The notes under the pieces are model-generated. The model was not told the DNA's origin. It did no database searches and worked only from the letters and a program-made list of their open reading frames with translations. The translations under genes were made by a program, and so were the position numbers. This document shows, one piece after another, positions 34,948 through 38,377 of a stretch of 64,000 nt of DNA. The first letter of the stretch is position 1. Every line of letters starts with the position of its first letter. The DNA is from Methanosarcina acetivorans C2A. Lineage in GTDB: Archaea; Halobacteriota; Methanosarcinia; Methanosarcinales; Methanosarcinaceae. Location of the stretch: positions 5,332,001 through 5,396,000 of the forward strand of contig NC_003552.1 of the NCBI RefSeq assembly GCF_000007345.1, in the 5' to 3' direction.

Positions 34948-36060
34948 TCAAATCCCGGCTTTTACCGCATCCCAGAGCATTTCCATCTTTTCAAGCGGCG
35001 TGTTCAGAGGGATTTCACAGCCTGTAGCAAGGATAAAACCTTTTTCCGGGGCTGCGGAGAGGCAGCTTTTTACTTCGTGCTCGATCTCAGCCCTTGAACC
35101 GGTGAGAGGGGCATCCGGGATAATGTTTCCCATAAGGCAGATACCGGCATCGGAGAATTCCTTAAACTCCTTGAAGCAGTGCCTCGGCCCGCACCCGATG
35201 TTGTTGTGGTTATGGAGCTTTTTACATTCGACCCCGTACTTCTTGCCGAGCAGCCTGACATCCCCGAAGGAAAAGTTAAGGGCATGGGGTTCAAGTTTCA
35301 TTTCAAGGTCATAAAAGGCATGAGCTGCGCAGTTATGGGATATTACGTATCCTCCTTCGGCTTTGATATGGTCATAGAGTTCCTTCGTATAGGGCAGCAT
35401 GAATTCTTCAGCCATTTGAGGACTGAAAAGATCCCCTGTACTCTCCCCGTTTTCAACAAAAATACCGTCTGCTCCGGCTTCAAGCAGGGTATCGGCAAAA
35501 AGGATGCAGCTTTCAGTGAGTTTTTCCAGCAGGGAATGGAAACTGTCCCTGTCCTTCAGCATGTCAATGCAGAGCCTGCTCCCACCCATGACCTGAGATG
35601 CGAGCATCAGGGGAGACATGGTTGCCCCAATGATAAGTGCCTCATCCCCGATTTCCTTCAAGAGAATTTCAACCGATCCGGCAATGGTCTTCACTCTCCC
35701 GGACCTCTCGATATTATCGGGGTTTATCAGTTCATGCTCGGCTGCGGATTTGAGAGCATATTTCTCAACCGCAGGATAGGCATTTTCCTTTATAGTTACC
35801 TTCGTCCCGAGTGCCTCGGCTTCCACCAGAAGGCAGCCCCAGGGAGACATCACATTGTCGTGGTGGTACATCTCCCGGGCAAGGATCTGCGCCTTTGCAA
35901 TTCCCTCTGCAGAACCGTAAGCATCCCTGAGGCTTGTGCCCATCCGCTCCAGTACCTCATGCCCGGCCCCGAACCACAGGTAGCCGTATGGGACTCTGTC
36001 AACACCTTTTCCTTCGAGTGCGTTAATAAAACGCTCCCTTGAGGTCATTTCCGCTTCCAT
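34948..36060 (-). CDS. MtaA/MtbA-type methylcobamide:coenzyme M methyltransferase homologue
   Basis: Member of the uroporphyrinogen-decarboxylase superfamily branch that moves methyl groups from a corrinoid protein to coenzyme M in methylotrophic methanogenesis; 370 residues, a normal length. The zinc-binding H-x-C...C pattern of this branch is present as His242 and Cys244 (in SHNCAAHAF) and Cys348 (in LATGCEIPLNTP). The N-terminus SRERFINALEGKGVDRVPYG is typical. ATG at 36060 or an internal ATG at 36048 (MTSRERF). No corrinoid protein or methyltransferase partner gene is adjacent, so the methyl donor (methanol, methylamine, methyl sulfide or an O-demethylation route) is open. Confidence 0.85.
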   Translation of the reverse strand: MEAEMTSRERFINALEGKGVDRVPYGYLWFGAGHEVLERMGTSLRDAYGSAEGIAKAQILAREMYHHDNVMSPWGCLLVEAEALGTKVTIKENAYPAVEKYALKSAAEHELINPDNIERSGRVKTIAGSVEILLKEIGDEALIIGATMSPLMLASQVMGGSRLCIDMLKDRDSFHSLLEKLTESCILFADTLLEAGADGIFVENGESTGDLFSPQMAEEFMLPYTKELYDHIKAEGGYVISHNCAAHAFYDLEMKLEPHALNFSFGDVRLLGKKYGVECKKLHNHNNIGCGPRHCFKEFKEFSDAGICLMGNIIPDAPLTGSRAEIEHEVKSCLSAAPEKGFILATGCEIPLNTPLEKMEMLWDAVKAGI

Positions 36061-36279: not shown

Positions 36280-36480
36280 TTTCACCCGTTTGGAGACTTC
36301 ATTGATGAGACAACCCCATAAAATAGCCCCGATTCTCAGTACAGGGTTTGAAGAATCGGTCATATCCAGCAAATACTTGTTTTCAGTTTGAAGAATCGGT
36401 CATATCCAGCAAATACTTGTTTTCATCGAGTTGCCCGTCTCCGTTGTCTCCGGAGAAATTCTCAGACAATACTCAGAATT
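36280..36480 (-). pseudogene. Remnant of an alkaline phosphatase C-terminal region
   Basis: On the minus strand the segment reads ENKYLLDMTDSSNPVLRIG, which aligns with DEYQLNTIDPENPVLKIG of the phosphatase at 32.7 kb (about half identical). It contains stops and an internal 40-bp duplication. Sequence upstream (36440-36720) also shares ordered blocks with the region upstream of the intact phosphatase. Best read as the decayed second copy of that gene. Confidence 0.45.
36346..36425. repeat. Perfect 40-bp tandem duplication
   Basis: Two identical 40-base units, 36346-36385 and 36386-36425, each starting GTTTGAAGAATCGG. Forty is not a multiple of three, so the duplication itself would break any coding frame through it, which fits the pseudogene reading of this stretch. 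Confidence 0.95.
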
Positions 36481-36813
36481 TTAGATTTTAAGCCTGAAAT
36501 AGGAGCCAGGAGTATTTTAAAACAGCATCTTCAAAAAATATAAAAAAATACATAAGAAATGAGAAAATACGTCTACTTAACCATATTTTAAGTCCGGCCA
36601 TATGCCGAAATATTTACCTTATGTTATTTCCTTCAGATCCCATTAGAATCATGCAGGATTAAGAATCAATGGACGAAATAAAGGAAGACTGAAAGAAAGT
36701 CAGAATGAATGAGATCCGTTCTTACCTGGAAATCCTGTAAACTTTCGAGTTAAAAAGTAATAGCTGCGAAGTATTGGACTAAAATGAGACAAAAACCTGG
36801 GGTATTACAAAAA

Positions 36814-37053
36814 ATGACAAAAATGTTTACATTTTCTGCAATGGTAAAAAAAGAGAATGAGCAGTACGTATCTTCATGCCTGGAACTGGAAATATCAAGT
36901 TAGGGTAAAACGATTGAAGAAGCGGTTTCGAACCTGAAAGAAGCAGTTGAACTTCATATAGAAAAAGAGAACATCGACCTTCCGATCAAACGCCCGTTTC
37001 TGACAACTTTTAAAGTGGCAGGAAAAGATTTCCGAGAGAAAAAAATGCCGTGA
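36814..37053 (+). pseudogene. HicB-like gene with in-frame TAG codon (possible pyrrolysine readthrough)
   Basis: From ATG 36814 to TGA 37051 the frame is open for 79 codons except one TAG at 36901-36903 (codon 30). Both sides are clearly HicB-like: FSAMVKKENEQYVSSCLELE before it and GKTIEEAVSNLKEAVELHIE after it. The TAG falls where the family usually has Gln or a similar residue just before the G-x-T turn. In Methanosarcina UAG can be decoded as pyrrolysine, so readthrough to a full-length protein is possible. A simple CAG to TAG mutation is the more cautious reading. No HicA partner is seen. Confidence 0.7.
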
Positions 37054-37066
37054 AAACATTGTGAGA

Positions 37067-37259
37067 AGAAGCCCGGAGGCACTGATATCCACTTTTGCTG
37101 AGTCCCCCAACACAGCAAGCCCTGAAGATATGCTCCCCCAAGCATATTGATCCAGAGCAGGATCAATGGCCCCCAAGCATTTCTGTTTATATTATACCCT
37201 ACTCACTTCCCAACTCCACGAATATAACATTATACCATTGGCTATTTTAAATTAATTAT
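37067..37259 (-). ncRNA. Candidate structured RNA gene, copy A, with promoter
   Basis: First of three related units. On the minus strand: a 14-mer ATAATTAATTTAAA (37246-37259), about 18 bases on a TATA-like GTTATATT (37220-37227), then a transcript ending near CCGGGCTTCTTC. Three hairpins are predicted: TTGATCC/GGATCAA around TGCTCT; TATGCT/AGCATA around a G-rich loop; TTGCTG/CAGCAA around TGTTGGGGGACT. T-runs follow. Indels between copies are not multiples of three, so it is not coding. Strand is inferred from the conserved upstream box. Confidence 0.6.
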
Positions 37260-37479
37260 CCAAAATTTTGTTTTTAAACAAAAATTAATTTAGCTTTGAA
37301 ATATTCAAAGTAAAATAAAGATTTAAGGAGAAAAATTCAGCTGTCAGACTCTGTGCTTCACCCTTCAAAATCAGTAGACTGCGACAAAGAACAAGAAAAT
37401 AGAGAAACAAAGAGTATAAAAAAAGTGAAAAAATGAAGTAGAGAACAGAGGAAAAAGACGGAAGAAAAAATAGTTTCAG

Positions 37480-37681
37480 AGAAGCCCGGAGATGCTGCGT
37501 CCGTTTGCTGCTCCCTCAACACAGCAACCCTGAAGATATGTTCCCCCAAACATAACTGTTCAGAGCAGAACCAACGCCTCCAGGCGGTTTTTTTAGGTGG
37601 CAGATTGTATCGGTAGATTATCCCATCTTACTTCCAAACTCCAGTATATACTAATAGCGGAAATTATTTTAAATTAATTAT
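37480..37681 (-). ncRNA. Candidate structured RNA gene, copy B, with promoter
   Basis: Second unit. The same 14-mer lies at 37668-37681, a TATA-like GTATATAC at 37644-37651, and the conserved 3' half ends at CCGGGCTTCT (37480). Hairpin 2 is ATGTT-TGGGGG-AACAT, where copy A has a C-G pair in place of a T-A pair, a compensatory change. Hairpin 3 is TTGCTG/CAGCAA. A GC stem plus T7 (about 37576-37593) would look like a terminator on the plus strand, the one point against the minus-strand reading. Confidence 0.6.
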
Positions 37682-37931
37682 ATCAAAAATTGTTCTGTTA
37701 CAAAGTATTTTGTGTTATAAAAAGTTTCAAAGCCAGCATAAATTATTCTCTAATTCTAATTTTTAACCAGAAATACTCAGCAAAAGTGTTCGTAGAAAAG
37801 CAAATGAGTATTGACAATAGCAAAAACAGATTGAAAGTATGCAAAAATAGGAAGAAAGCGACCAAAAATTGAATACAAAAATAGAACATAAACATGTTCG
37901 AAAGCACTGAAAACAAATATTGAACATAAGA

Positions 37932-38137
37932 AGAAGCCCGGTGTCCCATTTATCCCTTACCGCATCCCCCAACACAGCAGCTCTGAAAATATATTCCCAT
38001 CAAACATACTACCAGAGCAGGAACAGGCAACTCCGGGCAATTCTTTAACAATCCGCCTAATACTTCGCTATTCGATCGTCCCTATGTCTTCCAGCTCCAC
38101 TTATAACTAAGAATGTAAGATACTTTAAATTAATTAT
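37932..38137 (-). ncRNA. Candidate structured RNA gene, copy C, with promoter
   Basis: Third and most diverged unit. The 14-mer is at 38124-38137 and a TATA-like TTATAAG lies 17 bases downstream. The conserved blocks CCTGCTCTGG, TTTTCAGAGCTGCTGTGTTGGGGGA (in pieces) and CCGGGCTTCT are present in the same order. Hairpins 2 and 3 remain possible through G-T pairs. Similarity to the other copies continues about 50 bases upstream of the 14-mer. tRNA-Gln follows at 38305. Confidence 0.55.
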
Positions 38138-38304
38138 ATGAAAAATTCTTCTCAAACAAAAAATAGAGGCAGGCAAAATTTTTCAATGCCAACAAACTAC
38201 ATTTTAAATAATTGAAAGTAGAACTATAAATACCACAAAAAAGTCCGAAAATGGCACAAAAATTAAGTACATGAATTAAGCTATAAGTAAAAGCTTTCAC
38301 GTGC

Positions 38305-38377
38305 AGTCCTGTAGGGTAGTGGTCAATCCTTCGGGCCTTTGGAGCCCGGGACAGCGGTTCGAATCCGCTCAGGACTA
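38305..38377 (+). tRNA. tRNA-Gln (anticodon TTG)
   Basis: Acceptor arms AGTCCTG and CAGGACT pair, with discriminator A. The anticodon stem CGGGC/GCCCG encloses loop CTTTGGA, giving anticodon TTG, which reads CAA. The T-arm GCGG-TTCGAAT-CCGC is canonical. No intron and no encoded CCA. Confidence 0.95.

Follow-up and report, generated by a model that had tools for sequence, protein, structure and literature searches.

What are the three repeated minus-strand units that lie in tandem from 37.06 to 38.14 kb of this stretch of the Methanosarcina acetivorans C2A chromosome? The window, by which we mean the whole 64,000-nucleotide stretch analysed, corresponds to positions 5332001-5396000 of a host genome consisting of one contig of 5,751,492 bp. 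An initial annotation had read the units as copies of an undescribed structured RNA element, each opening with a strict 14-mer. We recovered U1, U2 and U3 where it had placed them, all on the minus strand and spaced by 422 and 456 bases, and the 14-mer ATAATTAATTTAAA is exact in each (Table 1). The boundaries first drawn do span promoter and RNA, but conserved upstream promoter sequence runs about 30 nt further. In every unit the 14-mer is followed about 30 bases on by a conserved GGAG; a variable stretch then leads into the conserved body, about 115 bases long, and the 3' halves of U1-U3 align in long invariant blocks. We consider it nearly certain that the repeats represent a real structured RNA gene family, and their sequences assign them to a family of ~160-letter RNA genes not described before. 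The reading that we favor, with a probability of roughly 60%, is that these are independently transcribed, trans-acting 'sibling' small non-coding RNAs. The analysis establishes the gene family, its structure, the promoter sequence, orthology by array position and the lack of a coding signal; we infer transcription, start and end points, regulation by base pairing, and targets.

Table 1. Features of the array and its syntenic neighbors, in window coordinates.
Feature	Position	Strand	Remarks
Promoter box U1 (array type D), ATAATTAATTTAAA, putative BRE/TATA region	37246..37259	-	exact in three units; consensus of 159 copies
Predicted transcript U1: GGAG start 37217, leader, body, 3' end CUUCUUCUC	37062..37217	-	predicted; start ~27 nt downstream of TATA centre
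Structured body U1: P1/P1b, P2 with inner hairpin P2b, P3	37065..37185	-	CM 103.7 bits; pairs counted on 53 homologues
Promoter box U2 (array type B)	37668..37681	-	exact 19-mer
Predicted transcript U2 (start 37642)	37475..37642	-	predicted
Structured body U2	37478..37592	-	CM 97.4 bits
Promoter box U3 (array type A)	38124..38137	-	exact 14-mer; 19-mer search
Predicted transcript U3 (start 38098)	37927..38098	-	predicted
Structured body U3	37930..38045	-	CM 93.2 bits
tRNA-Gln(UUG), divergent neighbor marking the syntenic array	38305..38377	+	
URO-D family gene, syntenic neighbor on the downstream side of the array	34948..36060	-	

A covarying three-way junction

Folded as minus-strand RNA, the three bodies reach -53.9, -46.8 and -50.6 kcal/mol (z -4.1, -3.1 and -5.1), better than almost all shuffles, and their plus-strand folds are weaker by 18-25 kcal/mol (-33.6, -28.9 and -25.5 kcal/mol). 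Because the minus-strand bodies fold so much better, we take the RNA to be read from that strand. Across the family alignment the body consists of a long closing helix, a three-way junction and two hairpins with UGGGGG loops. The closing helix P1 (GCCUGGAGG/CCUCCGGGC) continues into P1b (CUGAUCC/GGAU-CAG), the weakest helix at 79% paired; P2 is GCUCUG/CAGGGC in the window units and CUUCGAA/UUCGAAG elsewhere in the family; and P2b and P3 are each capped by a UGGGGG loop. The hairpin with loop TGCTCT that had been proposed did not survive the family alignment and is replaced by P2: its GCTCTG is the 5' strand of that helix and pairs with CAGGGC or CAGAGC, with family variants such as CTTCGAA...TTCGAAG. 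The loop guanines are among the best conserved positions, the stems vary freely, and at least two GGGG runs are present in 136 of 175 copies.

RNAalifold, applied to 53 homologues aligned by sequence alone, predicts 22 pairs, 19 of which carry two-sided changes that keep the pair. In the named structure, with 35 pairs in five helices, 89.7% of cells are paired, and 30 of the 35 pairs have changed on both sides with pairing kept, in 151 cells that represent all five helices. The shuffle control gave 21 pairs and 59 cells, and 0 of 500 shuffles came up to the real values; when one strand was slid by 1-3 columns, pairing dropped to 34-49%. Covariation between copies had been suggested from the three units, with neutral repeats named as the outcome that would count against it, and the two-sided changes speak clearly for the former.

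Distribution, promoter and predicted ends

With unit 2 as a DNA query, matches appear in 28 of 30 Methanosarcina genomes. A covariance model search across the genus, as the initial annotation had proposed, used a model built from 21 sequences and found at least one match in all 30 genomes, 250 in total and 1-22 per genome. In a 264 kb search the window units score E 2.5e-24 to 1.4e-21, partly by construction, the seed alignment having taken in all three. The locus had been described as three copies; the model places 11 in the genome, 8 of them outside the window. One sister genus carries four to six copies per genome in 4 of 4 genomes (~20 in total). The rest of the order (185 genomes) yields a single weak match (E 0.003), and a class-wide sample of 237 genomes has no match outside Methanosarcina and the sister genus at E 0.001. 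A scan for the loop pattern retrieved 25 contigs, nearly all from Methanosarcina, plus one Methanosarcinaceae and one Euryarchaeota archaeon. Within the window genome, the copies at 2250439, 2465292, 4107264 and 2482841 stand apart as a divergent subfamily: their start region (TATATTATAACGGGAG) is shifted and their G loops are weaker.

Of 175 copies, 159 have an ATTTAA motif at a distance of 58-98 bases upstream of the body, and alignment on it yields the promoter consensus AAtTTTT..tatAATTaATTTAAaaTAattta...tatta.t.tat..tggag, with the 19-mer TATAATTAATTTAAAATAA as its core between AATTTTT and TGGAG. By eye, 10 of the 11 window-genome copies have the promoter upstream of the body, the exception being the weakest, shortened copy. 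Allowing up to one mismatch, the 19-mer matches the window genome four times, each time before a family member; at up to two mismatches 9 of 14 matches belong to the family, against 2 in the control; and in an M. mazei-like genome 5 of 6 matches fall at family members, judged by position. The element thus appears to have its own promoter box, as had been claimed, and the 19-mer seems almost exclusive to the family, in both cases by sequence and not by activity.

About 27 bases from GGAG to the centre of the TATA box is the usual archaeal spacing. Since a conserved GGAG start lies ~27 nt downstream of the centre of TTTAAAAT, which overlaps the 14-mer, this motif is likely the TATA box, and the 14-mer would therefore contain the BRE and most of that box. 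The TATA-like site originally proposed 17-18 bases beyond the 14-mer, TATATAC, instead sits just upstream of the GGAG start. Further upstream of the promoter, a TTGTTT-N-AAACAA dyad occurs in strict form in 31 of 159 copies, compared with 0.8 in shuffles, which hints at a regulator site.

Predicted transcripts are 144-200 nt long (median 163). Runs of at least five Ts are found within 60 bases downstream of the body in 128 of 175 copies, compared with 43 of 174 control stretches, and the probable end of transcription is a U-rich tract that follows the conserved CUUCUUCU tail. ORFs in family copies are no longer than in shuffled sequence, so that the earlier view that the units share no common reading frame stands. 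Judged by sequence and not by activity, the copies are homologous RNA genes that each have a promoter of their own, as sibling sRNAs would. They show no excess of ORFs and, given the U-rich 3' flank, may be non-coding and independently terminated.

Genomic setting, leaders and proposed role

Gene order around the array, with tRNA-Gln(UUG) and a URO-D gene as neighbors, is shared with other Methanosarcina and extends to the sister genus; the tRNA is retained at 11 of 13 other loci. Arrays comprise three to six tandem copies, each preceded by a promoter. In a tree of 47 array copies the branches follow position and not species: type A, which includes U3, is supported at 100/100, type B at 98/86, type C at 99/98, and type D, which includes U1, moderately at 93/78. 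U2 is assigned to type B by position and leader; the tree does not place it there. Copy number varies from 1 to 22 and sites are dispersed, as might be expected if the copies were left over from a mobile or selfish repeat and had no cellular function, but compensatory changes in all helices, synteny and position orthology that are stable across species, and the lack of any match to the loop pattern in viral contigs make this origin very hard to credit.

The dispersed copies include recurring fixed sites, such as that between DUF711 and a TPP-enzyme (2-oxoacid oxidoreductase beta-like) gene at 9-11 loci. The copy at 4092446 sits just before a small zinc-ribbon gene (MKHLKICPKC...), and in genome G004 the promoter and leader lie directly before this same gene, with the RNA body mostly missing. 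Sensor histidine kinase genes often adjoin dispersed copies: a single protein cluster accounts for 20 such neighbors, of which 15 lie upstream in the same orientation. The DUF711/TPP-enzyme and zinc-ribbon sites, where a same-strand gene follows the RNA, could be taken to indicate a cis-acting leader or riboswitch-like element controlling downstream genes. Some copies do stand in tandem with the gene that follows, and 10 of 68 same-strand downstream ORFs have their start no more than 150 nt away. However, the commonest layout is a convergent downstream gene (51 copies), and downstream genes differ between copies; the array in the window has no credible minus-strand gene over ~1 kb downstream; and three to six copies occur in tandem with a promoter each. 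We therefore regard a cis role as distinctly improbable for the family, though a minority of copies may have one.

The trans-acting reading draws on the leaders. Leader identity is 80% within an array position and 57% between positions, and the corresponding values for the body are 84% and 72%. Leaders are 68% purine with less than 10% C and unstructured (no alifold structure, mean z 0.3); on this result we rejected a leader 5' hairpin, GGGGUA...UACC. An NrpR operator, GGTA-N6-TACC, was likewise set aside, as only N5 spacing could be read from the sequence, and only in some leaders. The division into a variable 5' and a conserved 3' part, first seen among the three units, takes on a sharper form across species: the 5' part is kept between orthologues and not between paralogues, which is what a family with different targets would be expected to show.

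Past the 3' end of the body, orthologues of types A and B are about as similar as shuffled sequences; those of type D remain similar there, probably owing to a HicB-like gene on the other strand. In the window this HicB-like frame (36800-37053, plus strand), convergent with U1, has an in-frame TAG (ELEISS*GKTIEEAV) where a related locus has Q; it may be either a pseudogene or a gene in which UAG is read as pyrrolysine. A tandem direct duplication of ~40 bases (GTTTGAAGAATCGGTCATATCCAGCAAATACTTGTTTTCA) is found at 36345-36426.

In the mechanism that we propose, the shared and almost private promoter would turn the copies on together. Each RNA would open with a purine-rich, unstructured 5' leader that differs by array position and would continue into a rigid body shared by all copies. 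The leader would direct each sibling to its own mRNA targets, and the body would stabilize the RNA and, through the three-way junction, present the twin UGGGGG loops, which may contact a partner common to all siblings, either a pyrimidine-rich RNA or a protein. The more specific suggestion of pairing between the G loops and C-rich sites in mRNAs finds no enrichment to build on: a genome-wide count gives 33 occurrences of CTCCCCCAA, which include the antisense strand of the family itself, versus 30 for the reversed control. Pairing of the G loop with the 16S tail (taken from general knowledge) was also considered and is not compelling, at -8.4 versus -16.3 kcal/mol for a full SD.

More tentatively, and with doubts of our own, we envisage a genus-wide Methanosarcina network of up to 22 siblings with a dedicated promoter, probably a dedicated activator, a twin-G-loop scaffold with one RNA-binding partner, and paralogue-specific leaders directed at different mRNAs. 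If true, it would be the first modular multicopy sRNA system of its kind in archaea, where few sRNAs have an established mechanism. The family is large, its structure is well defined by covariation, it occurs in model methanogens that are tractable to genetics, and its members follow a near-private promoter, so that its regulator, RNA partner and targets can be searched for directly. In M. acetivorans, wide degradation control of metabolic mRNAs has been described that RNases did not explain, and its authors suggested unidentified sRNAs (PMC5112694).

Comparison with known RNAs

Rfam 15 has no match at the gathering cut-off over the window except three tRNAs, and none at E up to 1 over 36950-38250, so that the element, called undescribed from the outset, corresponds to no named RNA family there. 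In the open literature we found no paper describing such a family, the 2009 M. mazei catalogue and the sRNA154 and sRNA41 papers lying outside this comparison. It is nevertheless quite possible, if not the outcome we would bet on, that some copies already figure among the catalogued sRNAs of M. mazei, perhaps as sRNA41 or as other entries of the ~240 in the 2009 list, and that their family nature went unnoticed: the catalogue is large and the M. mazei-like genome G008 holds 10 copies. Such an identity would confirm expression, and would make individual members less novel while leaving the novelty of the family intact. sRNA154 is, like the family, a structured sRNA conserved in Methanosarcina, and is itself regulatory, but it has an NrpR operator and a leaderless sORF and lies at another locus without a model match; its published qPCR primer matches G008:1649805 only, a position away from all ten family copies in that genome. 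sRNA162 and sRNA171 of M. mazei are intergenic Methanosarcina sRNAs of similar length (191 nt) (PMC3510493). sRNA162 has three stem-loops, SL1-SL3, a 39-nt single-stranded linker and a single copy in M. acetivorans (PMC3510493); set against this published description, not against its sequence, the family differs in having a closed three-way junction without the 39-nt linker and 11 copies in the genome. sRNA41 of M. mazei, another intergenic Methanosarcina sRNA, is reported to mask ribosome-binding sites, and is placed beside the family by description, not by sequence.

Outside archaea, two bacterial systems invite comparison. RNAs of the CsrB/RsmZ type are multicopy, as documented for csrB (PMC6262261), and carry repeated G-rich hairpin loops. 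The family could analogously titrate a protein, its twin UGGGGG hairpins sequestering an RNA-binding protein as CsrB/RsmZ does CsrA, with copy number setting the dose. The same G loops do stand on two hairpins in most copies, on freely covarying stems, and many copies share one promoter. Yet the window genome encodes no CsrA/RsmA homologue (PF02599; three control genomes respond), no candidate protein is known, the family loops are UGGGGG and not a GGA motif in its usual context, and titration would not require position-specific leader conservation. We therefore consider titration unlikely. For the trans-acting sibling RNAs that we favor, LhrC of Listeria may be the nearest functional analogue, in mirror image. 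LhrC1-5 of Listeria monocytogenes are likewise several copies under common control that repeat the same short loop motif (PMC4132741); their loops carry UCCC and bind G-rich Shine-Dalgarno sites, whereas the archaeal family displays UGGGGG loops on a covarying three-way junction.
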